NCBI GenBank assembly: GCA_027449865.1
Contig: DAIDKV010000139.1
Span: 1-49,311 of the forward strand
Direction: 5' to 3'
DNA from: Planctomycetales bacterium
GTDB lineage: Bacteria > Planctomycetota > Planctomycetia > Isosphaerales > Isosphaeraceae
Length of the DNA stretch: 49,311 nt
A program made the translations under genes and the position numbers. The notes beneath the pieces were generated by a model. It ran no database searches and was not told where the DNA came from. It saw only the letters and a program-made list of their open reading frames with translations. Of the stretch, positions 23,655 to 49,311 are shown piece after piece (the first letter of the stretch is position 1; every line of letters starts with the position of its first letter).

Positions 23655-24815
23655 GTGGACGAGGAATACCGCGTCCTGACCACCGACGAGGGCCGCCGCC
23701 TGCTCACCGAGGTCGAGGCCCTCGGAACCATCAACCCGGCCGGGCTTGATCGGCTTCGGAAGCTCGCCCCGCCCTCGACGGTCGCCGCGGCACTCCGGCT
23801 CGTTGAGGCCCGGCGCAAGGGTGCTGCCAAGTTCGACCGCGCCGGCGCGATGTGGCTCGATCCGGTCGGTGTCGAGCAGGCGACCGCCGGTCCGGTCGCG
23901 TGCCACAAGGCTGCGCGCTTCGAGGGCTCGCCGGTCGTCGTCGACCTTTGCGCCGGGATCGGCGGCGACGCGATCGCGATCGCCGATCGGACGCCAGTCG
24001 TCGCGGTGGACCTCGACCCGGGGAACTGTCGGCGGCTCCGATGGAACGCGCGCGTTCATGGAGTCGCCGATCGGATCGTCTCGGTCCGGGCGCGAGCTCA
24101 GAATTTCGTCATTCCCGAGCGCGCCCGGATCCATATCGACCCTGACCGCCGGGCCGACCGCGACCGACGCGCCCGGTCCCTGGAGGATTACGCCCCCGGC
24201 CCGGCGTTCTGGTCATCGATGATGGAGTCTGTGCCCGGCGGCGCGATCAAGCTCTCTCCGGCCGCCGACTTCGCCCGCGTCGCCCCGGCCGGCTCCGGGC
24301 GCGAGGTCGAGCTGATTAGCCTGAACGGCGAGTGCAAGGAGGCGACCGTCTGGTTCGGCGACCTCGCCACCTGCCGGCGTCGCGCGACCGTCCTCCCCTC
24401 AGGCGCGACCTGGACCGACGCCGATGGCGAGGCCGGCCTCGCACCGATCGCCGAGCCGTCCGGATGGATCTTCGACCCCGATCCCGCGATCCTCCGCGCC
24501 GGCCTGCTTGACGGCTTCGCGAGATCCCACGGCCTGTCGCGAGCCGGCGACGGCATCGATTACCTGACGGCTCCCGAAAAGATCGATTCGTCATTCCTCT
24601 CGGGATTTTCGGTGATGGACAGCACATCTCTCGATCCGAAGCGGATGAAGGAGATGGTCCGCAGGCATGGAATCGGCCGGCTGGAGATCAAGGTCCGAGG
24701 GATCGACCTCGCGCCCGAGACGCTACGCGCACGCCTCGACCTGAAAGGCAACGAATCGGCGACGCTGCTGATCGTCGGTCGATCGTGCGCGGTGCTCGCA
24801 CATCGGGCCGTTTAG
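23655..24815 (+). CDS. SAM-dependent methyltransferase with THUMP-like C-terminal domain
   Basis: A 386-residue protein. The N-terminal helical part (VLTTDEGRRLLTEVEALGTI) leads to a class I methyltransferase core with motif I VVVDLCAGIGGDAIAIAD, acidic motif II VVAVDLDPGNCRRL and IHIDPDRRADRDRRA. The last 60 residues (DPKRMKEMVRRHGIGRLEIK, then LRARLDLKGNESATLLIVG) match the THUMP-like module that ends this family. THUMP-type domains bind RNA, so an RNA or tRNA substrate is likely; the exact target is unknown. GTG 23655 (DEEYRVLTTDEG) is taken as start; ATG 23586 would add 23 residues. Neither has a strong ribosome-binding site. It is divergent from the dihydrouridine synthase with a promoter region of at most 150 bp. 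Confidence 0.85.
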   Translation: MDEEYRVLTTDEGRRLLTEVEALGTINPAGLDRLRKLAPPSTVAAALRLVEARRKGAAKFDRAGAMWLDPVGVEQATAGPVACHKAARFEGSPVVVDLCAGIGGDAIAIADRTPVVAVDLDPGNCRRLRWNARVHGVADRIVSVRARAQNFVIPERARIHIDPDRRADRDRRARSLEDYAPGPAFWSSMMESVPGGAIKLSPAADFARVAPAGSGREVELISLNGECKEATVWFGDLATCRRRATVLPSGATWTDADGEAGLAPIAEPSGWIFDPDPAILRAGLLDGFARSHGLSRAGDGIDYLTAPEKIDSSFLSGFSVMDSTSLDPKRMKEMVRRHGIGRLEIKVRGIDLAPETLRARLDLKGNESATLLIVGRSCAVLAHRAV

Positions 24816-24916
24816 CCGGAGAATTCAAAGACGCTTCCCAATCCACCCCTCCGGCCTGTTACAATCGGCCTAAATGTCCCCGCACCGACCTCATCCTCCC
24901 ACCACGGTGCCCGACG

Positions 24917-27900
24917 ATGATGCATCGACCCCCCTGCCCGCTCTCGGCGATCGTCGCGATCCTGGCTGCCTGGGCGACGGTGCCTGCCCTCGCCGATGAC
25001 GCGAAGCTGCCGCCCTCCGTCTCGCGGCCGATCGACTTTGCCCGGGATGTCGAGCCGATCCTGGCGAAGAACTGCCAGCGATGCCACGGACCGAAGAAGC
25101 AGAAAGGCGGCCTTGCGCTGCACGTCGTTGATCGGGCCATGGCCGGCGGCGACGGCGGCCCGGCGATCGTCGCGGGTCGATCGGCCGAGAGTCGCCTGAT
25201 CCGCTACGTGGCTGGGCTCGAAGACGAGCGGATGCCGCCCGAGGACTCTGGCGACCCGCTCTCGAACGAGCAGATCGGAATCCTTCGCGCCTGGATCGAC
25301 CAGGGAGCGAAGTGGTCGAGCACGTCGGTGGCCTCGACGAAAACCGCCTCCGATCACTGGTCGTTCCAGCCCCCGCGCCGGCCCGATCCGCCGAGCCTGA
25401 AGGATCGTTCCTGGGTTCGCAACCCGATCGACGCGTTTGTCCTGGCACACCTCGAAGGCCGGGAGATGCGGCCGTCGTCCGAGGCCGACCGAGCCACCCT
25501 GATCCGCCGCCTCAGCCTCGACCTGATCGGCCTGCCGCCCACGCCCGAGGAGGTCGACGCCTTCCTCGCCGATAAACGCCCCGACGCGTATGATCGTCTG
25601 GTCGATCGCCTGCTCGCTAACCCACGCTTCGGCGAATGCTGGGGCCGGCACTGGCTCGACCGGGCCCGATACGCCGACACCAACGGCTACGAGAAGGACC
25701 GTGAACGCTCGATCTGGCCCTATCGCGACTGGGTCATCCGCGCCCTCAACGCCGACATGCCCTTCGACCGCTTCACCGTCGAACAGCTCGCCGGCGATCT
25801 TCTCCCGAATCCGACGGTCGACCAGCTCGTCGCCACCGGCTTCCACCGCAACACGATGACCAACGAGGAGGGCGGCATCGATGTCGAGGAGTTCCGGTTC
25901 GTCTCGATGATCGACCGCGTGAACACCACGGGAGCCGTCTGGCTCGGTCTGACCATTGGATGTGCTCAGTGTCACTCACACAAGTATGATCCGATCAGCC
26001 AGCGCGAGTATTATCAATTTTTTGCCTTCCTCAACAACGCCGACGAGCCTGAGATTGCCCTTCCCGATTCGGAGATCGCCTCGCGTCGGGCGGCCATCGC
26101 ATCGCGGATCGCGGACCTCGAATCGGGTCTTCGCGATCACTACCCATCGGCCGGACCGGGCAGCCTGGCGTCGAAGCTGGAGGCCTGGGAGAAGACGATC
26201 CATCCGACTCGATGGAACGTGCTGACTCCCGCGAAAGTGACCTCGAAGAAGCACGCGACGATGACGGTGCAGCCGGACGGCTCGGTCCTCGCGACCGGCG
26301 ACAAGCCGAATAATGACGTTTACACCGTGGAATTGCCGGTCGACCGCGAGGGGATCACGGCGATCCGGCTGGAGGTTCTCACGGACCCGAGCTTGCCCGA
26401 GAACGGTCCTGGCCGGGCGCCTTTGTTTCAGGTTGGCGATTTCCTTTTGACCGAGTTCCGGATGGAGGCACACGACGCGAACGGCCCGTCGCGTCCGATT
26501 CGGTTCGCCGGCGCGACCCAGGACTACACCGCGCCAGGGCGATCGGCGGCGATGGCGATCGACGGGATCACCGACACGGGATGGAGCGTCAACGGGGCGG
26601 TCGGCCGCGATCACGCGGCGGTCTTCGAGCTGGCCGAGCCGGTCGCGGGAAAGCCGAGGCGGCTGGTGGTCAGCCTGCATCAGGAATACATCCACCAGAC
26701 GACGATCGGTCGGTTCCGACTCTCGGCGACGACCGATTCGAGGCCGGTCCGCGCCTCGGGGCTGCCGGCGGACGTCGAGTCGATTGTGCTGGTCCCCCGG
26801 AGCGATCGGACGGAGGATCAGATCCGGAGACTGCAAGATTATTACCTGTCGATTGCTCCCGAGCTGGCGAAGGCGCGCGAGCCGATCGCTGCCTTGCTGC
26901 GGTCGATGCCAGGGTTCCCGACGTCGATGGTGATACGGGAGCGCCGGCCCGAGCACGCGAGAACGACCCAGATTCACCGCCGAGGCGAGTTCCTCAAACT
27001 GGCCGACCCAGTCGAGCCGGGGGTGCCGTCGGTCTTGCATCCGCTCCCGAAGGGTGCCCCGCTCAACCGGCTGACGATGGCCCGATGGCTGGTGGATCCG
27101 GCGAACCCCCTGGTCGGGCGGGTCGCAATGAATCAGCTCTGGCAGGAGCTTTTTGGCCGGGGCCTGGTCCGCACAACGGAGGACTTCGGAACCCAGGGCG
27201 CCCAGCCCTCGCATCCCGAGCTGCTCGACTGGCTCGCCACCGAATTCGTTCGACAGGGCTTCTCCACCAAGGCGATGCTCCGGCTCATCGTGACGAGCGC
27301 GACCTATCGCCAGTCGTCGGGTGCCTCGCCCGATCAACACGCCCTCGACCCGACGAACGAGCATTTGAGCCGGGGGCCTCGGTTCCGGGTGACGGCCGAG
27401 GTGGTGCGCGACGTGGCGCTCTTTTCGTCGGGATTGCTGACCGATCGCCTGGGCGGCCCGAGCGTCTACCCACCGCAACCCGAGGGGGCCACGGCGCTCG
27501 CTTACGGCCAGTCTCGCTGGCCAACGAGCCGGGGCGCTGACCGCTATCGTCGGGGCCTCTACACATTCCTGAAGCGGACGGCTCCGTACGCCGCCTCGAT
27601 CGCGATGGATGCGCCGACCTCGGAGACGACCTGTGTTCGTCGCGAGCGCTCGAACACGCCGTTGCAGGCGCTCACGCTGCTGAACGACACGGTCTTCGTG
27701 GAGGCGGCGAGAGCGATGGCGCGTCGATCGATCGTGGAGAGTCCTGATCGCTCGATCGAGTCGCGTGCGCGTCGGATCTTCCGCCTGGCGCTCTCTCGCC
27801 CGCCGACGGATGAGGAGCTATCGCGCCTGGCCGCCTTCTACCGAAAGCAGCTCGAGCGCTTCCGATCGGGCAAGCTGGACGCCTCGAAGGTTGCCGGCCT

Positions 27901-28033
27901 GGACGTGAAGGACGCGCCCACCCCCCTGCTCGCTCCGACGCCGCCGGCCGGCTCCGACGCCGCCGAGCTGGCCGCCTGGACGACCGTGGCCCGCGTGCTG
28001 CTCAACCTGGACGAGACGGTCACGAAGGAGTGA
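24917..28033 (+). CDS. Exported cytochrome-c-domain protein with DUF1549 and DUF1553 (PSCyt1-PSCyt2-PSD1)
   Basis: A 1038-residue protein characteristic of planctomycetes. A signal peptide (about 1-26) is followed by a planctomycete cytochrome c module with haem motif CQRCH (53-57) and PILAKNCQRCHGPKKQKGGL. DUF1549 follows (RSWVRNPIDAFVLAHLEGRE, LIRRLSLDLIGLPPTPEEVD and TIGCAQCHSHKYDPISQREY). A central beta-sandwich-like insert (about 430-600) precedes the C-terminal DUF1553 (PLVGRVAMNQLWQELFGRGL, ATYRQSSG and RRERSNTPLQALTLLND). Such proteins are periplasmic, often expanded in number and linked to polysaccharide or sulfated-glycan catabolism, but their chemistry is unproven. A DUF1501 gene usually follows; none does here. 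ATG 24917 begins the signal peptide but has no obvious ribosome-binding site. Confidence 0.93.
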   Translation: MMHRPPCPLSAIVAILAAWATVPALADDAKLPPSVSRPIDFARDVEPILAKNCQRCHGPKKQKGGLALHVVDRAMAGGDGGPAIVAGRSAESRLIRYVAGLEDERMPPEDSGDPLSNEQIGILRAWIDQGAKWSSTSVASTKTASDHWSFQPPRRPDPPSLKDRSWVRNPIDAFVLAHLEGREMRPSSEADRATLIRRLSLDLIGLPPTPEEVDAFLADKRPDAYDRLVDRLLANPRFGECWGRHWLDRARYADTNGYEKDRERSIWPYRDWVIRALNADMPFDRFTVEQLAGDLLPNPTVDQLVATGFHRNTMTNEEGGIDVEEFRFVSMIDRVNTTGAVWLGLTIGCAQCHSHKYDPISQREYYQFFAFLNNADEPEIALPDSEIASRRAAIASRIADLESGLRDHYPSAGPGSLASKLEAWEKTIHPTRWNVLTPAKVTSKKHATMTVQPDGSVLATGDKPNNDVYTVELPVDREGITAIRLEVLTDPSLPENGPGRAPLFQVGDFLLTEFRMEAHDANGPSRPIRFAGATQDYTAPGRSAAMAIDGITDTGWSVNGAVGRDHAAVFELAEPVAGKPRRLVVSLHQEYIHQTTIGRFRLSATTDSRPVRASGLPADVESIVLVPRSDRTEDQIRRLQDYYLSIAPELAKAREPIAALLRSMPGFPTSMVIRERRPEHARTTQIHRRGEFLKLADPVEPGVPSVLHPLPKGAPLNRLTMARWLVDPANPLVGRVAMNQLWQELFGRGLVRTTEDFGTQGAQPSHPELLDWLATEFVRQGFSTKAMLRLIVTSATYRQSSGASPDQHALDPTNEHLSRGPRFRVTAEVVRDVALFSSGLLTDRLGGPSVYPPQPEGATALAYGQSRWPTSRGADRYRRGLYTFLKRTAPYAASIAMDAPTSETTCVRRERSNTPLQALTLLNDTVFVEAARAMARRSIVESPDRSIESRARRIFRLALSRPPTDEELSRLAAFYRKQLERFRSGKLDASKVAGLDVKDAPTPLLAPTPPAGSDAAELAAWTTVARVLLNLDETVTKE

Positions 28034-34697: not shown

Positions 34698-36011
34698 TCA
34701 GAAGAGAGTGCCGGTGCTGGGGACCGGGCTGGGGTTGATCGGCGAGCCGGTGTAAGGGAGCGTCCCGTTGACAGGCAGCGGGTTGGGGTTGATCGGCGAG
34801 CCGGTGTAGGGCAGCGTGCCGGTAACCGAGAGGGGCGAGGGATTCGCTGGGGTGCCGGTGTAGGGGAGCGTCCCGTTGGTTGGCAGCGGCGACGCGTTGA
34901 TCGGCCCGACCGGGTAGGCCAGCGGGTTGATCGCGATCGGACTGTAGGCCAGTGGACCGAACGGTAAGGCACCCTGCACGCCGATCGTGCTCAGCGGGAA
35001 GGTCGCCGCGCTCCCGAGCACGGAGGTCGTGGCACCTGAGAGACCCGGCGTGGGAACCATTCCGCCGGTGTCCAGCGCCCCTAGCGGCGAGGTCGGCGTG
35101 ACCGAGGTCGGATACCCGGTGCTGGCGAATCCGGTCGTGCCGTAGCCGAGCAGGCCCGTCGTGCCGAAGCCAGTCTGGCCGGTCGTGCCGAAGCCGGTGG
35201 TGCTGTAGCCGAGTCCGCTTCCCATGTTCGAGCCGATCGTCCCAAAGCCTGTGGTGACCAGCCCGGTCGGACTGTACCCGGGAGCGACGTAGCCGAAATT
35301 GCCGCCGGTCGTCACGGTCGCGGCCGGAGAGGTGGCGACGAGCGTTGGCAGGGCGCTGCCCTGCGAGTTATTCACGACCGAGTAGGCTGGTAACGCCGTG
35401 CCAATGACCCCGCTGGTCGGAAGCAGTCCGGTCGCGAGCGTGTTGGTCGCTGCCGATGTTCCGAAAATCGCCGTCCGGTCCGCAAGGCCGCGGGCCAGCA
35501 GGTCGGCCCGTGCGGTGACACCCCGGGCCAGGAGGTCGGCTCTTGCCACGGCGCCTCGGGTCAGAGCGGATGTCACCGGTACCCCGGACGTCGTCGAAAC
35601 CCCGGTGCCCAGGTCGGTGACCGTCACGGCGCCGGTTGGGGAGACCGAAACCAGCGGATCCTTGGCCATCGCCGACTTCGAGAATGCCAGGGTCGCGACC
35701 CCTCGATGATGGCCCAGCGCCGCTCTGCCCGCATGGAGCCGATGATGAGCCGCGAAATGATGGTGAGCCGCACCATGATGATGGGCCGCGAATCGATGTT
35801 GGGCCGCGAGGCGATGCTCGACGGCAAGGCGGTGGTCGACCGCCGCGTGGTGGGCGACCGCGGCATGCGCCGCTGCTCCCATCCCCGAGAGCAACGATCG
35901 ATCTTCCAATTTCGACTGGTCGCCGCTCATCGACGGAACGAACTGGTGACGACGACGATCTGAGCGAACCGTATCGACCTCGGTCCGGTGGATTTTCAGG
36001 GCGCGCAACAT
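34698..36011 (-). CDS. Exported repeat protein with His-rich block, paralogue 1
   Basis: A 437-residue protein of an unrecognised family. Four zones are visible. (1) A basic start ending in LEDRSLLS (35-42), the LEPR-XLL-type motif. (2) A histidine-rich block (about 49-103) built of six-residue units such as HRLAVE and HRLAAQ plus HHH clusters. (3) A conserved strand, PLVSVSPTGAVTV (119-131), followed by Ala/Thr-rich repeats (ARADLLARGVTARADLLARG). (4) Low-complexity repeats, first TTGFGTTG-type, then an 18-residue unit GTLPYTGSPINPNPLPVN in about four copies to the end. The His block may bind divalent metal; the rest looks like an extended fibrous wall protein. GGAG precedes ATG 36011. A paralogue lies 334 bp upstream on the same strand. 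Confidence 0.82.
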   Translation of the reverse strand: MLRALKIHRTEVDTVRSDRRRHQFVPSMSGDQSKLEDRSLLSGMGAAAHAAVAHHAAVDHRLAVEHRLAAQHRFAAHHHGAAHHHFAAHHRLHAGRAALGHHRGVATLAFSKSAMAKDPLVSVSPTGAVTVTDLGTGVSTTSGVPVTSALTRGAVARADLLARGVTARADLLARGLADRTAIFGTSAATNTLATGLLPTSGVIGTALPAYSVVNNSQGSALPTLVATSPAATVTTGGNFGYVAPGYSPTGLVTTGFGTIGSNMGSGLGYSTTGFGTTGQTGFGTTGLLGYGTTGFASTGYPTSVTPTSPLGALDTGGMVPTPGLSGATTSVLGSAATFPLSTIGVQGALPFGPLAYSPIAINPLAYPVGPINASPLPTNGTLPYTGTPANPSPLSVTGTLPYTGSPINPNPLPVNGTLPYTGSPINPSPVPSTGTLF

Positions 36012-36157
36012 GACTGGATCTCCTCGGTGGAGTACGCGAGAACTCGTATTTTGATGCGTCCGGGCGGACGCTCGATCCCGGAAGGAGCCGCCTCATCCGA
36101 TTGGGGAGGCGATCGCTTATTGGTGTTCTAGATAAGGCAAGTGGTGTGCCAGGCGGG

Positions 36158-36339
36158 TTTCAGTTTTTCAGTTTTCAGTTTTCGGTTCGGATAATCGGTC
36201 GATGATGTTTCGCCGCGATTCACCGCATCTCGACAGGAAAACGTTTTCAACAAACAATCACAAGCTCTACCACCGTAAGCGTAACGGCCTACAATCCCAT
36301 TACTGAAAACTGAAAACTGAAAACTGAAAACGGAAAACT
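36158..36339. repeat. Paired inverted TTTTCAG microsatellite arms
   Basis: Between the two paralogous genes, a left arm (about 36158-36187) of TTTTCAG-type units is mirrored by a right arm of CTGAAAA units (about 36302-36339), separated by about 115 bp of AT-richer DNA. The right arm ends a few bases from the stop codon of the gene at 36345. The arms could pair into a hairpin of about 30 bp. The same design, larger, occurs at 48968-49311. Confidence 0.8.
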
Positions 36340-36344
36340 CTTCC

Positions 36345-37538
36345 CTAGGCCATATTCAGTCCCGAATAGAGGGAAGAAGCGGTGGTAAGGTAGGGATCGA
36401 CGGATGCGACGGCGGCCAGCGACGGGTTGACCGAGGCAATCGCGCCAACGTAGGGGTTGTATGTGGAGATGGTTCCGACGTAGGGATTCATGGCGTCGAT
36501 GGTGGCGAGATAGGGGTTGGCCGCGGCGATGCTGGCGAGGATTGGGGTGGTCGATTCGAGAGTAGCGAGGTACGGGTTCGCCAGGGTCGCGGAGGCCAAG
36601 TACGGGTTGACCGAGCGGATCTCGGCCAAATACAGATTGTTTGCGGCCCTCGAGATGGGGTAGACGCCAGCGGTTCCGATGGCGGAGGTGAGATACGGGT
36701 TGGCGGAGACGCTGCCGGTAAGGTCGGGAGTGATTGACGAGAAGGAACTCCCGGTAGCGGCCGTGGGCATATACGACGGTGCGGCGAAGGTTGTGAGCGG
36801 ACCCGTCTGGCCGATGGTGGCCGACGGGATGGTCGGCAGGCCGGAACTGTCGATCATGGCCGTCGGCAGGCCCGTTCCGAAGCCTGAGTATGGTGTGAGG
36901 GTGGAGAGCCCTGCGAGCATGCTGCCTCCGCTGCCGGTGCCAAGGGCGACGATGTTTGGCCCGCTCGGGGTAAACGCGGTGCCGCTTGTGCTGTAGGTCC
37001 GGCCGGTCGCGCCGAGGGCCGTACCGGTGGCGCCGAAATCGGCGCCCGTCGTGCCGAGACCCAGCACCGACGCGGGGATGGCAGTGCCTGTCGCACTGGC
37101 TCGCGTCTCAATCGCCGGAAAGCTGTAGACCCCGCCGACCGAGACCGCGCCCATTGGTGAAACGGAGACGATCGGATCGTGGGTGATCGCCGCGCTCGCG
37201 CCTGGCATGACCGCGAGCTTCCCTCGATGCGAGCGAACCACTGCGCCCGTATGGGTCGCGAAGTTGTGTCTGGCGGCGAGCCGGTGCTCAACCGCGAGAT
37301 GGTGCCGGGCCGCGAGGCGATGCTCGACCATGAGCCGGTGATCGACCGCGAGGCGGTGATCAACCGCGAGTCGGTGATCGACAGCCGCAAGATGGCCGGG
37401 GGTGGCGGGGGCTGCGGTGAGGAGCTTTCGATCCTCCAGTGGCGACGCGAATCCATCGAGCGACGGGCGGAACTCCCGCCGTGAGCGTCGCGACGAGACG
37501 GACGACAGGGACGGATCAAGGGCGATTCGGCGCGACAT
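36345..37538 (-). CDS. Exported repeat protein with His-rich block, paralogue 2
   Basis: A 397-residue paralogue of the protein at 34698-36011, with the same zones. A basic start ends in LEDRKLLT (34-41). A histidine block (about 49-95) of six-residue repeats HRLAVD, HRLMVE, HRLAAR follows, about seven copies, encoded by an 18-bp tandem repeat. Then comes a strand matching PIVSVSPMGAVSV (122-134) and Gly/Thr-rich sequence (TGADFGATGTALGATGRTYS). The C-terminal array has about nine ten-residue units of the type NPYLATIDAM or NPYVGTISTY. The conserved strand and block order show common descent, while the terminal repeats differ completely. GGAGGTCTCATC precedes ATG 37538. Surface location and metal binding are inference. 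Confidence 0.82.
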   Translation of the reverse strand: MSRRIALDPSLSSVSSRRSRREFRPSLDGFASPLEDRKLLTAAPATPGHLAAVDHRLAVDHRLAVDHRLMVEHRLAARHHLAVEHRLAARHNFATHTGAVVRSHRGKLAVMPGASAAITHDPIVSVSPMGAVSVGGVYSFPAIETRASATGTAIPASVLGLGTTGADFGATGTALGATGRTYSTSGTAFTPSGPNIVALGTGSGGSMLAGLSTLTPYSGFGTGLPTAMIDSSGLPTIPSATIGQTGPLTTFAAPSYMPTAATGSSFSSITPDLTGSVSANPYLTSAIGTAGVYPISRAANNLYLAEIRSVNPYLASATLANPYLATLESTTPILASIAAANPYLATIDAMNPYVGTISTYNPYVGAIASVNPSLAAVASVDPYLTTASSLYSGLNMA

Positions 37539-37872
37539 GATGAGACCTCCGTGGGTCGATGCCGGTCATTCCTGGAAGCCGAGAGCCCAGGCGGGCGCCC
37601 GGCCGTCGGATAGGTCCTCCGCGGGTCGGAGGGATCAGGTAGGAACATTCTGATGAGCCAGCAACCCCGATGCCGTTATCGCTCGTCGGACGAGGATGGT
37701 GGAGCCCGGTCGGACTCGTTTGGTCCTCGCTGTTGCCCCGTGCCGAGGGCTCGGGGGAAGATGGGTCGATCGGGCACTTCGATTTTTCCCCGGGAAAAGT
37801 TGGGACGCGCCGGCCGATCAGGTCCCAGTAAGAGGTAGAAGGCCTGAGAGCGGAGACGCGGGAGGTTCGTCG

Positions 37873-39798
37873 ATGGCGACCGGATCGGGATCGGCGCGAG
37901 ACGTCTGGAAGGGGCTCGAAGGGCTCTTTCGCTTCGGCACGTTGGGGGCGGTGGATGACGCCGAACTGCTCGGCCGGTTCGTCGACGCCGGACGCGGCGA
38001 GGCGGCCGAGGCGGCGTTTGCGGCGATGGTCGAGCGGCATGGGCCCATGGTCCTGGGCGTCTGCCGTCGCGTGCTGGGCGACCGCCACGAGGCCGAGGAT
38101 GCGTTTCAGGCGACCTTTCTGATCCTGGCGCGGAAGGCCCGGTGGATCGCCCGGCCGGAGCAACTGGCGAGCTGGCTGCACGGGGTCGCCGTCCGGACCG
38201 CCCGCGACGCCCGCCATCGCGACGACCGCCGCCGCGCCCGCGAGCGGAAGGCGTCGCTCCCGGCCGACGCTGCCGTCCCACCCGACGATTCCGCCGATCG
38301 CGACGAGCTGCGGGCGATCATCGACGAGGAACTGACGCGGCTGCCGGCGGCCTATCGAGGGCCGGTGATCCTCTGCGAGCTGGACGGCCTCTCGCGAAGG
38401 GCGGCGGCGGTCCGGCTTGGGATCTCGGAGGGAACGCTTTCGAGCCGATTGGCCCGGGCGCGTGGACTGCTCCGCGACCGGCTGACCCGGCGAGGCCTCT
38501 CGCCCTCGGCCTCGACGCTCGCGATCCTGGCGCGGCCGATCCGCGCCGTTCTGATCCCGCCGTCTCTGGCGGAGGTCACCATCACGGCCGCGGCTCGGGT
38601 CGCGGCCGGCACGTCTCTGGCCGGCGCCGCGGCGGCGCCGGTCGTCACGCTCACCCAGGGAGCCCTGAACGCCATGTTGTTCGCGAAAGTCAAGGGCGTC
38701 GCTTATGCGGTCGCCTCGATCGCCGTCGTGTCGACGGGGGTTGGCGTGCTCGCTCAGGCGCCGGATCGAGGCGGACCGCCCCGGCCGTCGCCTTCGCGGG
38801 ACGCTCGTCCCGAGGTCGTGGAGCAGAAGGTCGAGCGTCGCGATCGGCCCGGCCGGGGCTCGTCGCGGGAGGACCGCCTCGACGCCCTGGAGAGGAAGCT
38901 CGACCGGATACTTGAGGCCCTCGGCGACGGCCGACGAGGCGAGGGTCAGGGCGACTACTGGAAGAACCCGACGTTCGGAAAGGAGAAGAGTTTCGACACC
39001 TGGTCGGCCTCGGCGTCGCGGACGAATCCGGGTGCGCCCGCCCCGCCGCCGGCCGCGCCCCGACCACCGGTCCCGCCGTCGCCGGACGTGGCGGTTGCCG
39101 ACCTTCCGCCGGACGCGCCGGCCGTCGCCCCGGCCCCGCCGCTGCCGCCAACGGTGACGATCCCCCACGCGGGCATGGCCGCAGCGGGCGTCTTCGCCGT
39201 CCCCGAGCCGAACTCGCTCGAAGGGCGCGTCGCCGAGCTGGACCGTCGGCTGACCGCTCTGGAGAACCGCCTCAATTCGCCGACCGGCTGGATCCGACGG
39301 CTGGACCAGCGCCAGCGTCCGGATCAGGTCCCGAATCGCGCGGCTGGCCAACCTCCCATCGAATATTCGTACTACGAGGATGTCACCTACGAGGATGTCA
39401 CCACGGTTGCTGAGCCGACACCGCCTGTCGCGCCCCGATCCTCGGCCCGGCCGAGTCGAGCAGCCCCCGAGACCGACGGCGATTCGCCCCGGCCTTCGGC
39501 GAGGCCTCGCAACAACAGCAGGCCGGCGCGCTCGGCCCCCGAGGCCGATGTCGAGCCTTCCGAGCCGAAGGCGGGTGCCCATAGCGAGGCCAGCAGGCCG
39601 GTCGTCCGCCCCGGGCCCGAGAACCAGGAGGACAGCGAGACCTCGCCTCGCCGATCCTCGTCGAGCGACCGGGATGACGGTTCGACGCAACGCACAACGG
39701 ACAGCGAGACCTCGCCTCGCCGATCCTCGTCGAGGCCAGCGGGCGACCCGAACCGGGCCAATTCGTGGCCAGCGGGCGACCCGAACCGGGCCAATTGA
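37873..39798 (+). CDS. ECF sigma factor with membrane helix and long exported tail
   Basis: A 641-residue protein. Residues 1-205 form a complete ECF sigma factor: region 2 (MVLGVCRRVLGDRHEAEDAF, then QATFLILARKARWI) and region 4 (ELTRLPAAYRGPVILCELDG, then SRRAAAVRLGISEGTLSSRL). A linker follows, then one membrane helix at about 275-295 (GVAYAVASIAVVSTGVGVLA). The remaining ~345 residues lie beyond the membrane: a coiled segment (EDRLDALERKLDRILEALGD), Pro/Ala-rich sequence, a second short coil (EGRVAELDRRLTALENRLNS) and a Ser/Arg/Pro-rich repetitive end. Such sigma factors with built-in sensor tails occur in planctomycetes; regulation may be by proteolytic release instead of a separate anti-sigma. 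GGAGG precedes ATG 37873. Confidence 0.9.
   Translation: MATGSGSARDVWKGLEGLFRFGTLGAVDDAELLGRFVDAGRGEAAEAAFAAMVERHGPMVLGVCRRVLGDRHEAEDAFQATFLILARKARWIARPEQLASWLHGVAVRTARDARHRDDRRRARERKASLPADAAVPPDDSADRDELRAIIDEELTRLPAAYRGPVILCELDGLSRRAAAVRLGISEGTLSSRLARARGLLRDRLTRRGLSPSASTLAILARPIRAVLIPPSLAEVTITAAARVAAGTSLAGAAAAPVVTLTQGALNAMLFAKVKGVAYAVASIAVVSTGVGVLAQAPDRGGPPRPSPSRDARPEVVEQKVERRDRPGRGSSREDRLDALERKLDRILEALGDGRRGEGQGDYWKNPTFGKEKSFDTWSASASRTNPGAPAPPPAAPRPPVPPSPDVAVADLPPDAPAVAPAPPLPPTVTIPHAGMAAAGVFAVPEPNSLEGRVAELDRRLTALENRLNSPTGWIRRLDQRQRPDQVPNRAAGQPPIEYSYYEDVTYEDVTTVAEPTPPVAPRSSARPSRAAPETDGDSPRPSARPRNNSRPARSAPEADVEPSEPKAGAHSEASRPVVRPGPENQEDSETSPRRSSSSDRDDGSTQRTTDSETSPRRSSSRPAGDPNRANSWPAGDPNRAN
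39631..39796 (+). repeat. Direct repeats within the 3' end of the sigma-factor gene
   Basis: A ~35-bp segment beginning GACAGCGAGACCTCGCCTCG occurs at 39631 and 39700 (period 69 bp, 23 codons). A 30-bp segment beginning GGCCAGCGGGCGACCCGAAC occurs at 39734 and 39767 (period 33 bp, 11 codons). Both periods are multiples of three, so the frame is kept and the tail lengthened. The stop codon follows directly after the last copy. Confidence 0.85.
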
Positions 39799-40094: not shown

Positions 40095-40415
40095 GACTCC
40101 GATTCGATGGCCGCTCGGTCCCCCGCCTTATTCCATCGCTCCACGGCGATCTCATCTCCGGACGGGCACTTCAACAGGAGGGCCCTGCGAAAATCCTGAT
40201 CCTCGATTTTTCGTCCCGGGTGTCTGATCCCGACACGATCCGGCAATCCACCGAGTGGGGCGAGACGGACGCGAGGCCCAATCTCATCGGCCTCTCGTCT
40301 CCCAGCGATCTCGGCGAAAACGGAAGCGGCCCGCGAATGCGGTGTGGTGGTCGAGCGACGGTCGTTCGACCTCTCCGATAGGGGTGCGCTCTCAAGCAAT
40401 CGAGGATCTACCGCC

Positions 40416-43400
40416 ATGTCTACCTCCTGGTTCCGCAGCCTCCGCAAGAACAACCGGGCCACTCTTCGCCAGCAGGAGCGCCGACGCCGCTTCCAGATTG
40501 AGTCGCTCGAGGGCCGCCAGGTGCTCTCAACCTTCACGGTCACCAGCCTCGCCGATAGCGGTCCGGGCTCGCTTCGCTCGGCGATCGTCGCGTCCGACGC
40601 CACGCCGGCCACGGCCAGCACTCCGAACTCGATCGTCTTCGATTTCAACACCTTGAGCGGTGGCAACGGCGACCAGCAGGTGACGATCAACCTGAACTCG
40701 GCCCTGCCCACCATCACGCAGCCCGTCCACCTGCTCGGAACCCTGCCGAACGCCACGCCGGGCGTCGTGCTCAACGGGACCAACGCCGGCTCCTCCGCTG
40801 TCGGCCTGCAACTGACCAGCACGGCCGCGGGCAGCGAGGTGACCGGATTCGTGGTCGATGCCTTCAGCGGCGGCGGCATCCTGATCGACGGGGCTCACGA
40901 TCAGATCAGCGGCGATTTCATCGGCGTCAACGGGGCCGGCACCACCGCGGCCGGCAACGGCGCCTTCGGTGTCCAGCTTACCAGCAACGCGACCGGGTCC
41001 ATCGTCGAGGGAAGCACCATCTCGGCCAGTTCCTACGGCGTCGAGATCGACGGAACAACAGGCGCTCTCGTTACGGCCGACAACATCGGCACCGACTCGA
41101 CCGGCACCCACGCCCTGGCCAACAACATCGGCGTCTACGTCTTCGACGGCGCGACGAACAACACAATCAGTAGCGACCTCATCTCGGGCAATACACTCTA
41201 CGGCGTGGAAATCGCCGACGCGGGCACAACCGGGAACGTCGTCGAGGGCAACGATATCGGTACCGACAGGACCGGCGCCGTTGCCCTTGGTAACGGCGAT
41301 ATCGGCCTGCTCATTACCAACGGCGCGTCGGACAATACGGTCGGTGGAACTGTCGCCGGGTCGGCCAACGTCGTCTCCGGCAACGGGGTTTACGGTGTCT
41401 ACATCTCCGGCACGGGGACAACCGGGAACGTCGTTGAGGGGAATTTCGTCGGCACCAACCCCGGCGGCACCACGGCCATAGGTAACGACGGTCGAGCGCT
41501 GGGCAACGACGACGGCGTGGAGATCGCCTACGGGGCCGCCGGCAACATCATCGGCGGAACCACGCCTGCCGCACGCAACATCATCTCCGGCAACCTCGGC
41601 GACGGCGTTCAGATCAGCAGCAGCGGCGGGAGCAACCTCGTCGAGGGCAACTTCATCGGCACTGCGGCCAGCGGTACCTATGCCCTCCCCAACGGCCGCA
41701 ACGGCGTGACGGTCCAGTACGGGACGAATCAGGACATCATCGGAGGCACAGCCCCCGGCGCAGGCAACGTCATCTCCGGCAATCGCAACGACGGTGTCTG
41801 GATTCTCAGCGCGAGCGACGCCACCGTCGAGGGCAACCTCATCGGGACGAATTCCGATGGGACGGGCGGACTGGCCAATCTTTCGGGCGTCTGGATCGAG
41901 GGCGGGTCGACGAACAACACCATCGGTGGGAACACGGCCGAGGCTCGCAACGTGATCTCGGGCAATACTCAGTGGGGCGTCTACATTACCGGATCGGGCA
42001 CGACCGGCAACGTCGTCGAGGGAGATTTCGTCGGCACCGACATCACCGGAAATGCCGCCCTGCCCAACGGCTACAACGGTGTTGATATCACCGCGGGAGC
42101 CCAGTACAACACCATCGGCGGGGCCACCGCCGCGACCCGAAACATCATCTCGGGCAACTCCAATAACGGTGTCGTGATCGCCTTCGCCGGAGCCTCGTAC
42201 AACACGGTCGAGGGGAACTGGATCGGCCTCGGCGCGGCCGGAAACGACCTGGCGAACGGGGCCAACGGTGTGGAGATCCTGGGCGGGGCCACCTCCAACA
42301 CCATCGGCGGGACGCCGAACGTGATCTCGGCCAACGCCCAGCAGGGTGTGTTGATCACCGACTCCGGCACCACCCACAACATCGTCTCGAGTGACCTCAT
42401 CGGAACGGACCCCACGGGCAATCTCGCGCACGATGCGAACAACAATTCCTTCGGCAACCGCGGCCACGGGGTCGTGATCACCAACGGGGCTCAGTACAAC
42501 CTGATCGGCGGGGTCACCGCCGCGACCCGGGACGTCATCTCGAATAACTTCAACAACGGTGTGGCCTTCTCCGGCTCCGGCACGGCGTACAACTTGGTGG
42601 AAGGAGACTTCATCGGCACCAACGCGAGTGGAACCGGCAGCCTGGGCAACGGCGGCAACGGCGTCTTCTTCTCAGGAGCCCCGGGCAACACGGTTGGCGG
42701 GACCACCGCCGCGACCCGAAACATCATCTCGGGGAATCAGTCAAACGGCCTCTGGCTCACCTCCGGCGCCTCGTCCGAGGTCATCGAGGGCAACTTCATC
42801 GGCACCGACGTCTCCGGCACGTACGCCGTCCCGAACCGCAACGATGGCGTGCTGATCAACGCGGCCTCGACGAACAACATCATCGGCGGGACCGACACGG
42901 GCGCGGGCAATGTCATCTCGGGCAACGCAAACGCGGGTGTGACTTTCTCCGACTCCGGCACAGCGTACAATGCTGTCTACGGCAACTTCATCGGCACCGA
43001 CGCCACCGGGAATTCCGCACTGGGCAATCACTACGGCGTCCAGGTCTTCTACGGAGCGTCGGCCAACACCATCGGCACAGCCTCGGGCCGCAACGTGATC
43101 TCGGGCAACGGCTGGGACGGCGTCCAGCTCTTCTACGGGGGCACCAGCAACAACACGGTCCAGTACGACAACATCGGCACCAACGCCGCCGGAACCGCCT
43201 CCGTGGCCAACGGCGGGAGCGGTGTGGCCATCGCCGGGTCGGCGAACAACAACTATGTTCAGTACAGCCTGATCTCGGGCAATACGTACGATGGCGTCTT
43301 CGTCAGCGACCCCGGAACGACCAACAACTGGATCTATGTGGACGACATCGGCACCGGTCCGGGCGGCTTCGGCGCCGTCTCCAACGGGACCAACGGCGTG

Positions 43401-43910
43401 GTCATCCAGTCCTATGCCTCCTCGAACTCCGTCGAGTACTCGACCATCTCGGGCAACCTCGAGAATGGCGTGCTGGTCCAGGGCTACGGGACCAACAACA
43501 ATGACGTGAAGTTCAACAACATCGGCGTCAACGCCGCGGTGTCCGGAGTCATTCTTCCGGTGGGTCGGCCTTACAGCAACTTTATCGGAGTGGAGATCTC
43601 CGACTCCGCCTACGGAACCGACGTGGCCGGCAACTCGATCTCGGGGAACGATGTCGGCGTGCAGATCGACGGATCGGCCACGGGAACCTCGGTCCTCTAC
43701 AACGCGATCGGGACGGTCACCTACAGCGTCGGCGGCGGCACTTTCGGCAACGCTCAGTACGACGTCTATGTCATCGGGTCTTCGGGCAACAACATCGACA
43801 ACAACACGATCGCCAACGCCGGCGTCGTCGGAATCCTGTTCCAGGGCTCGCCCAACCAGGATGGAGGCCACAACACCTTCAGCAACGATCTGACCAACGA
43901 ACAGTTCTGA
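40416..43910 (+). CDS. Giant exported parallel beta-helix (NosD/PbH1-like) protein
   Basis: A 1164-residue protein. The N-terminus is basic (SLRKNNRATLRQQERRRRF) and ends in LEGRQVLS (31-38), the LEPR-XLL-type motif, followed by TFTVTSLADSGPGSLRSAI, as at the start of CSLREA-type surface proteins. The rest consists of dozens of parallel beta-helix turns with consensus NVISGNxxxGVxI, then EGNFIGTDxxGT and ALxNGxNGV. Asparagine ladders and NTIGG turns repeat with a period of about 48-70 residues. Beta-helices of this type bind or cleave polysaccharides or act as adhesins; no catalytic residues can be singled out. No C-terminal anchor is seen (it ends FSNDLTNEQF). ATG 40416 (MSTSWFRSLRKN) is taken as start; an upstream ATG at 40344 is less likely. 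Confidence 0.92.
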   Translation: MSTSWFRSLRKNNRATLRQQERRRRFQIESLEGRQVLSTFTVTSLADSGPGSLRSAIVASDATPATASTPNSIVFDFNTLSGGNGDQQVTINLNSALPTITQPVHLLGTLPNATPGVVLNGTNAGSSAVGLQLTSTAAGSEVTGFVVDAFSGGGILIDGAHDQISGDFIGVNGAGTTAAGNGAFGVQLTSNATGSIVEGSTISASSYGVEIDGTTGALVTADNIGTDSTGTHALANNIGVYVFDGATNNTISSDLISGNTLYGVEIADAGTTGNVVEGNDIGTDRTGAVALGNGDIGLLITNGASDNTVGGTVAGSANVVSGNGVYGVYISGTGTTGNVVEGNFVGTNPGGTTAIGNDGRALGNDDGVEIAYGAAGNIIGGTTPAARNIISGNLGDGVQISSSGGSNLVEGNFIGTAASGTYALPNGRNGVTVQYGTNQDIIGGTAPGAGNVISGNRNDGVWILSASDATVEGNLIGTNSDGTGGLANLSGVWIEGGSTNNTIGGNTAEARNVISGNTQWGVYITGSGTTGNVVEGDFVGTDITGNAALPNGYNGVDITAGAQYNTIGGATAATRNIISGNSNNGVVIAFAGASYNTVEGNWIGLGAAGNDLANGANGVEILGGATSNTIGGTPNVISANAQQGVLITDSGTTHNIVSSDLIGTDPTGNLAHDANNNSFGNRGHGVVITNGAQYNLIGGVTAATRDVISNNFNNGVAFSGSGTAYNLVEGDFIGTNASGTGSLGNGGNGVFFSGAPGNTVGGTTAATRNIISGNQSNGLWLTSGASSEVIEGNFIGTDVSGTYAVPNRNDGVLINAASTNNIIGGTDTGAGNVISGNANAGVTFSDSGTAYNAVYGNFIGTDATGNSALGNHYGVQVFYGASANTIGTASGRNVISGNGWDGVQLFYGGTSNNTVQYDNIGTNAAGTASVANGGSGVAIAGSANNNYVQYSLISGNTYDGVFVSDPGTTNNWIYVDDIGTGPGGFGAVSNGTNGVVIQSYASSNSVEYSTISGNLENGVLVQGYGTNNNDVKFNNIGVNAAVSGVILPVGRPYSNFIGVEISDSAYGTDVAGNSISGNDVGVQIDGSATGTSVLYNAIGTVTYSVGGGTFGNAQYDVYVIGSSGNNIDNNTIANAGVVGILFQGSPNQDGGHNTFSNDLTNEQF

Positions 43911-48967: not shown

Positions 48968-49311
48968 ACGGTTTTCCGTTTTCGGTTTTCAGTTTTCAGT
49001 TTTCAGTTTTCAGTTTTCAGTTTTCAGTTTTCAGTTTTCAGTTTTCAGTTTTCGGTTTTCAGTTTTCAGTTTTCGGTTTTCGGTTTTCGAGATCCCTCGC
49101 TCAACACCACCCCGAGCGACGGCCGGCGCCCCCGCGCACTGGTTTGGCCCTCGGGTCGCGCACACCAACCCGAAGCGCCAGCGAGGGGCCTCTCAGCTCG
49201 GTCCGCCGCGATCTCCGGAACCCTCGCTGGCGCTTCGGGTTAGTGTGGTGTGGTGAGCGAGGAGTCTCGAAAAACTGAAAACTGAAAACTGAAAACTGAA
49301 AACCGAAAACT
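48968..49311. repeat. Nested palindromic element with TTTTCAG microsatellite arms
   Basis: Starting one base after the peptidase stop codon, a heptanucleotide array (TTTTCAG with TTTTCGG variants, about 17 units) runs to about 49088. Next come CGAGATCCCTCGCTCAACAC, then a 27-bp segment at 49161-49187 (CCGAAGCGCCAGCGAGGG core). The order then reverses: 49221-49247 is the complement of the core with one mismatch, 49250-49270 the complement of the CGAG segment, and 49265-49311 an inverted array of CTGAAAA units that reaches the window edge. The whole is a three-layer inverted repeat. It is not a CRISPR array, as there are no spacers, and no gene is present. Confidence 0.88.

Follow-up and report, generated by a model that had tools for sequence, protein, structure and literature searches.

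We analyzed a 49,311-nt stretch of a Planctomycetales genome (contig DAIDKV010000139.1; hereafter the window, whose positions serve as coordinates throughout, with the source genome termed G000). It carries two adjacent genes, P0001 and P0002, that encode probably exported, histidine-rich proteins (Table 1). Both frames are open and begin with ATG, and their leaders, GAGGAGATCCAGTC and GGAGGTCTCATC, resemble ribosome sites when judged by eye. The products follow a common plan: an LEDRxLL motif, a His block of period 6, a DP(L/I)VSVSP(T/M)GAV core, and Gly/Thr-rich sequence. In a single comparison they align at 36% identity over 284 columns (E 2e-24), and they agree most closely in the stretch that starts at LEDR, takes in the His block, and ends with DPxVSVSPxGAVxV. 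An earlier, sequence-only reading of this DNA had described two adjacent paralogues built to one plan, and both the frames and the shared architecture confirm that description. The His block together with the core is the specific mark of the family.

Table 1. Window positions of the two genes, their segments, and the divergent sigma factor gene (ORF, open reading frame; ECF, extracytoplasmic function)
Feature	Position	Strand	Basis
P0001, probably exported His-rich protein, copy kept in the genus	34698..36011	(-)	ORF of 437 aa, orthologues, dN/dS
P0001 LEDRSLL, planctomycete export motif, starting at residue 35	35889..35909	(-)	sequence; not among 44 weak PF07595 places
P0001 His/Ala-rich block, residues 42-116, 17 His	35664..35888	(-)	His count; AlphaFold helix 45-105
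P0001 core DPLVSVSPTGAVTV	35619..35660	(-)	P0001/P0002 alignment; AlphaFold gives two short strands at low confidence
P0001 C-terminal array, 18-residue SPINPSPLPVNGTLPYTG units	34701..34904	(-)	period analysis
P0002, divergent paralogue, absent from G017 and G018	36345..37538	(-)	ORF of 397 aa
P0002 LEDRKLL, export motif, starting at residue 34	37419..37439	(-)	sequence; weak PF07595 place, 11.6 bits
P0002 His hexapeptide block, residues 41-119, 11 His	37182..37418	(-)	His count; AlphaFold helix 47-105
P0002 core DPIVSVSPMGAVSV	37137..37178	(-)	P0001/P0002 alignment
P0002 C-terminal array, ten-residue NPYLAT-type units	36363..36614	(-)	period analysis
ECF sigma factor with long C-terminal extension, possible regulator by association	37696..39798	(+)	divergent from P0002

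The pair belongs to a small family of probably exported, mostly disordered proteins, with members in one genus and weaker ones in another. Relatives combining LEDRxLL with HRLAxx repeats had been proposed as a search target. P0001-like genes occur in all five genomes of the genus (G000, G016, G017, G018, and G019) among 45 genomes of the taxonomic family, and two weaker members lie in a genome of another genus (G014; C312 and C303), but the search drew a blank in the other 391 genomes of a 392-genome phylum sample, in which only G000 matched. That sample was searched with four candidates scored per genome, so distant members could be missed; 21 rows were given by name, G000 among them. The order-level search likewise covered 45 genomes. 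A search of its own genome with P0002 returned only P0002 and P0001. In G018, the P0001 orthologue consists of two fragments on two contigs, with the middle missing.

Database searches agreed in essence with the view that the family is an unrecognized one. P0001 has no match in Pfam or NCBIfam, and a PDB profile search gave 0 matches. The only Pfam match of P0002 is PF06583 (Neogenin_C; 27.4 bits against a cut-off of 25, E 4e-06, residues 100-291), which was found neither in P0001 nor in loci L020, L021, and L022. The matched stretch is rich in Gly, Ser, Thr, and Pro, and nearly all of it has an AlphaFold predicted local distance difference test (pLDDT) score under 50; although the match lies above the cut-off, we judged it a probable low-complexity artefact. 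Three further candidates were dropped: locus L005 from the genome contig scan (its 71-aa matching frame lies within, and antisense to, a Gln-rich frame of 1241 aa), a match to P0002 in G001 (E 1.8e-5; Gly/Thr-rich residues 159-270 only, lacking motif and His block), and a match in G008 (E 2.5e-5; little beyond the export motif of another protein, FKBP-like from its sequence). The kind of protein is already known in planctomycetes; this His-rich family itself has no description among the papers listed by the literature searches, whose coverage mostly left out subscription journals.

Export Motif and Histidine Block

Each protein begins with an Arg-rich N-terminus followed by FxPS...LExRxLLS, and LExRxLL or LExRxML recurs in the relatives from G017, G019, and G016. 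In its passages on this motif, a paper on Tuwongella immobilis gives the planctomycete consensus RRLxxExLExRxLLA (PF07595), credited to Studholme et al., and describes it as an export signal (PMC8567305). The same passages report a local form of the motif in 52 genes of that organism, with 20 of the 52 proteins detected and 8 of them only in the sodium dodecyl sulfate-soluble fraction (PMC8567305). LEDRxLL had been taken as a mark of the family; from that account, it is instead a phylum-wide export motif (PMC8567305). Export of P0001 and P0002, also proposed earlier, is what we infer from this motif.

Profile searches place this resemblance below formal membership. A PF07595 scan of the source genome returned 44 weak places, all short of the curated 25.5-bit cut-off; P0002 is listed there and P0001 is not. 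Among the 30 places that were fetched, 26 show a LEx[RK]x-type motif, located 33 to 164 residues into the open frame; one of these (L055) looks like chance, and two pairs (L036/L037 and L062/L063) are alike. Since the 20-position model also matches weakly in 8 of 14 control genomes, a single weak match means little. When the two proteins were searched directly, neither matched PF07595 or the NCBIfam model LEPR-XLL (NF012209, cut-off 17 bits) at E up to 1; another motif-bearing protein of the source genome scores 16.8 on the latter. Because they fall below the curated cut-offs, P0001 and P0002 are not placed in either family; by motif and motif position, they look like exported proteins of this type. 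Separately, L062 and L063 of the source genome share LLRSFGIPT and contain 6 and 8 His, respectively, in the 75 residues that follow LEERxLL; they are perhaps another small exported family.

Between the export motif and the DP core, where we counted His residues, the block holds 17 His in 75 residues in P0001, 11 in 79 in P0002, 12 in 75 in G017, 14 in 77 in G019, and 25 in 115 in G016. The density is 0.14-0.23 across these five proteins, and none of the five has Cys. By comparison, the 75 residues beyond the motif hold 1.46 His on average, and 8 at most, in 26 other motif-bearing proteins. P0001 has ten His pairs at lag 6 and P0002 has seven, counts that were each reached in 0 of 5000 block shuffles. 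Lag 6 is the strongest in P0001, P0002, and G017, as against 5 and 10 in G016; in G019, lags 5 and 6 both exceed shuffles. Density, not spacing, is therefore what is kept, and the register changes between relatives.

AlphaFold models the block as one long helix in both proteins, with best ten-residue mean pLDDT values of 84 (P0001) and 79 (P0002). Ten-residue blocks with a mean of at least 70 are confined to the His block, and nearly everything else lies below 50. An amphipathic-strand fit (mu180) was obtained for P0001 (p 0.011), P0002 (0.000), and G017 (0.003) and was not seen in the blocks of G019 (p 0.63) or G016 (p 0.99). With two blocks failing and AlphaFold giving a helix, we claim no particular geometry for the block.

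Selection, Terminal Repeats, and Loss of P0002

P0001, tail included, is under purifying selection between close relatives. The ratio of nonsynonymous to synonymous substitution rates (dN/dS) is 0.20 (0.15-0.28) against G017 over 410 codons and 0.15 (0.08-0.27) against G018 over 227 codons, a comparison that does not include the His block. For the tail, the values are 0.19 (0.10-0.32) and 0.10, respectively. Between G019 and G016, the first 120 residues, which comprise the N-terminus and the His part, give 0.39 (0.23-0.64); outside this N-terminal part the pair is less constrained. P0001 is thus a maintained gene in one clade.

The sequence-only reading had also supposed rapid turnover of the terminal repeats. 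This describes the difference between the paralogues but not that between orthologues: the tail of P0001 has the low dN/dS values just given, and its SPxNPSPLPxNG type recurs in the P0001-like proteins across the genus (G016, G017, G018, and G019) and, in looser form, in G014 of another genus. Repeat counts, suggested as a comparison between strains, differ in G016, with two full units; the other genus members are equal at four. The tails of the two paralogues were further said to have nothing in common. Their periods do differ, being 18 in P0001, whose last 90 residues show 38 identities at that lag, and 10 in P0002, whose last 125 residues show 42 at lag 10; yet the wording was slightly too strong, as both repeat Asn-Pro (NP), five times in P0001 and six times in P0002 within the last 110 residues. 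By shuffling, the enrichment has p 0.0096 in P0001 and was reached in 0 of 5000 shuffles for P0002. NP enrichment alone is not significant in G017, G019, G016, or G014 (p 0.06-0.44), so this link between the tails is weak.

P0002 has had a different fate. Its site is spanned by one contig each in G017 (C78) and G018 (C699). In G017, none of the gene itself is left, and what remains is a stretch of 30 bases matching the P0002 leader (96.7%, window 37538-37567). G018 retains the end of P0002 at 80% over 40 bases (window 36334-36373; LYSGLSMA vs LYSGLNMA in P0002), after which the sequence enters the neighboring sigma factor gene without its first ~330 residues. The local score of this remnant is 49, compared with a maximum of 20 among 3000 other 80-base pieces of the window. 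The two different scars point to a P0002 that was present in the common ancestor of G000, G017, and G018 and then lost twice, losses that could, with low probability, reflect misassembly in the fragmented G017 and G018 assemblies (980 and 1430 contigs). P0002 is, on this comparison of sequences, a dispensable divergent copy. That the genes are silent and decaying, which the earlier reading had named as a refuting condition, is not supported for P0001, while P0002 could be dispensed with in two relatives.

Neighboring Genes and Local Repeats

In each of the five genus genomes, P0001 or its orthologue is tail to tail with a gene for a calcineurin-like phosphoesterase, although the G017 contig holds only the end of the latter; a major facilitator superfamily gene comes next in four of the five, the G017 contig ending before it. 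PSCyt1, PSCyt2, and PSD1 domains are encoded at 24512-28030 and, together with the export motif, point to a planctomycete source. A large parallel beta-helix protein (40344-43910) bears the same kind of export motif, IESLEGRQVLS, and those parts of it that G017 and G018 contain show 90-91% identity. Passages of one paper state that annotations of giant genes frequently name surface proteins or synthases (PMC5352709).

Arrays of the heptamer GTTTTCA occur in the window at 36165-36338 and 48971-49311 and also at loci L078-L083. They form inverted pairs, (GTTTTCA)n ... (TGAAAAC)n, ~115-290 bases apart, which bracket apparent intergenic stretches; by eye, several begin near an apparent stop codon, and some arrays are located at contig ends. 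Overlapping matches to a 22-mer number 124 in G000, 58 in G016, 51 in G018, 6 in G019, and 0 in G017, with 0 for a reversed-pattern control. When the heptamers were masked, eight elements, all picked as pairs, showed no similarity at E 1e-3 and therefore have no shared transposon-like interior. The arrays are reminiscent of cyanobacterial heptamer repeats. An inverted repeat resembling repetitive extragenic palindromic elements, AACCCGAAGCGCCAGCGAGGG, is nested within the heptamer pair at the window end (49161-49247); AACCCGAAGCGNNAGCGAGGG has 11 matches in the source genome and 0 for the reversed-pattern control.

Possible Function and Comparison with Known Proteins

Our preferred interpretation, held at a probability of about 0.45, is that these are lineage-specific exported structural proteins of the wall or matrix whose His segment can be switched by metal or pH. 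The N-terminal Arg-rich and FxPS...LExRxLLS segment would act as the planctomycete export signal. The mature part would comprise a His/Ala-rich, helix-prone segment of ~50-90 residues, the short DPxVSVSPxGAVxV-type core, and a disordered Gly/Thr-rich stretch finishing in Pro/Asn-rich repeats. If it has such a structural role in the cell wall or the surface matrix, the protein may associate through its tail with a wall or matrix polymer, and the His segment may make contacts switchable through divalent metal binding or protonation; metal binding by the block is plausible. A fuller version is improbable as a whole: the His/Ala helix would be a metal- or pH-switchable cross-linker in a surface-matrix family, and the ECF sigma factor would tune production to the state of the surface. 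In this version, selection would keep His density while the register changes (6 in G000 and G017, 5 in G016).

Several observations weigh against a switchable structural protein. For the His block of P0001 against G017, dN/dS is 0.41 (0.16-1.07), not clearly below 1, and the His spacing differs between relatives (period 6 vs 5). In the G019/G016 comparison, dN/dS is 0.68 (0.51-0.90) over the full length and 0.90 (0.65-1.24) beyond residue 120, where the alignment is poor; these values arise partly from poor alignment and are compatible with relaxed constraint. Among 13 other window proteins scanned with Pfam, no metal transporter or metal regulator was recognized, but six of the ten in one of the scans had no match of any kind. 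The AlphaFold models drew on just two sequences, and low confidence in a model says little about disorder.

An unlikely alternative is a dedicated metal buffer, in which the His block would be an extracytoplasmic store of zinc, nickel, or copper and the rest only a tether. Such a store would suit the 17 and 11 His of P0001 and P0002, the absence of Cys, and a G016 block that is His-rich even with another repeat. Between P0001 and G017, every one of the 8 His-bearing units retains its second-position His, while the residues at the first and third positions alternate between His and Gln or Arg. The beta-helix neighbor also matches PF05048 (NosD, named as periplasmic copper-binding; 35.5 bits, cut-off 23.6), though its Beta_helix match is stronger and we read the NosD match as a shared beta-helix repeat. 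A buffer fits poorly with the shifting His spacing and with the lack of a recognized metal transporter or regulator among the 13 proteins scanned, and it leaves the conservation of the tail unexplained.

To the same limited extent, the His/Ala segment could be a passive spacer or a part of the export signal whose His richness arose by repeat slippage and drift. Repeat type and block length do vary (75-79 residues in four proteins, 115 in G016), and three 18-base units of the G017 block are identical in DNA, a sign of recent homogenization. Of the two G014 members, one has 12 His in the 75 residues beyond the motif and the other only 5, too few to count as His-rich; the dN/dS of the block and the dispensability of P0002 also accord with a spacer. 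However, five proteins retain a high density of His despite differing repeat patterns, when the other 26 motif-bearing proteins reach at most 8 per 75, and the hexapeptide units of P0002 vary at synonymous sites (CAC/CAT, CGA/CGC/CGG) yet keep their His.

We consider it rather improbable that the exported protein and the sigma factor form a signaling pair, with a membrane-type ECF sigma factor sensing the surface via its C-terminal extension and controlling the adjoining gene. The sigma protein has sigma-70 regions 2 and 4 followed by a ~430-residue Pro-rich extension, in which a candidate membrane segment can be read from the sequence. Its gene is divergent from P0002 in the window and from the P0001 orthologue in G017, and a homologue (48% over 537 columns) is divergent from a P0001-like protein in G014. 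In G014, however, something other than this adjacent sigma factor matches the C-terminal extension best, no sigma match turned up in the loci fetched from G019 and G016, and the G018 gene lacks its sigma regions along with the rest of its first ~330 residues. We therefore put the regulatory link forward as an idea only.

Sortase-type anchoring through LPYTG as an LPxTG signal is very improbable: LPYTG occurs three times in P0001, G018 has it twice with one LPFTG, and G017 has one LPFTG, but the other G017 units read LLFTG and LPFTR, G019 (LPFTL, LLFTR, LPFTR) and G016 (LPFTR) contain no LPxTG, and the P0001 copies are internal to an array that ends in ...PSPVPSTGTLF, with no hydrophobic stretch or positive end behind them.

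Little is understood about the planctomycete surface, and no role is known for many of the proteins that bear the export motif. With one copy maintained, the other dispensable, and a His block that keeps its density but not its spacing, this small family offers a manageable case for studying low-complexity surface proteins. Should these proteins prove ordinary, the main gain is a correction: LEDRxLL is a phylum-wide signal, and the P0001 tail is not fast-changing.

Analogies can be drawn with other modular or His-rich proteins. Suckerin-type proteins alternate a His/Ala-rich module with a Gly-rich low-complexity module; they are animal structural proteins, we claim no sequence relation, and a literature search listed no paper that bears on the analogy. 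Plasmodium histidine-rich protein 2 is exported and of low complexity, and its short His/Ala repeats include a hexapeptide; it has another export route, other flanks, and a higher His content, and here too we draw an analogy without claiming homology. A role involving heme is described for that protein (PMC4232395). Among planctomycete exported proteins, the motif passages of the Tuwongella paper mention PF07595-type examples with trypsin, glucose dehydrogenase, and Ig-like or integrin-beta domains, count many of the longest proteins among this kind, and name no His-rich example (PMC8567305). P0001 and P0002 differ from these in what follows the signal; their likeness to the PF07595 (Planc_extracel) and LEPR-XLL proteins lies in the Arg-rich N-terminal stretch and the LExRxLL(S/A)-type motif behind it.

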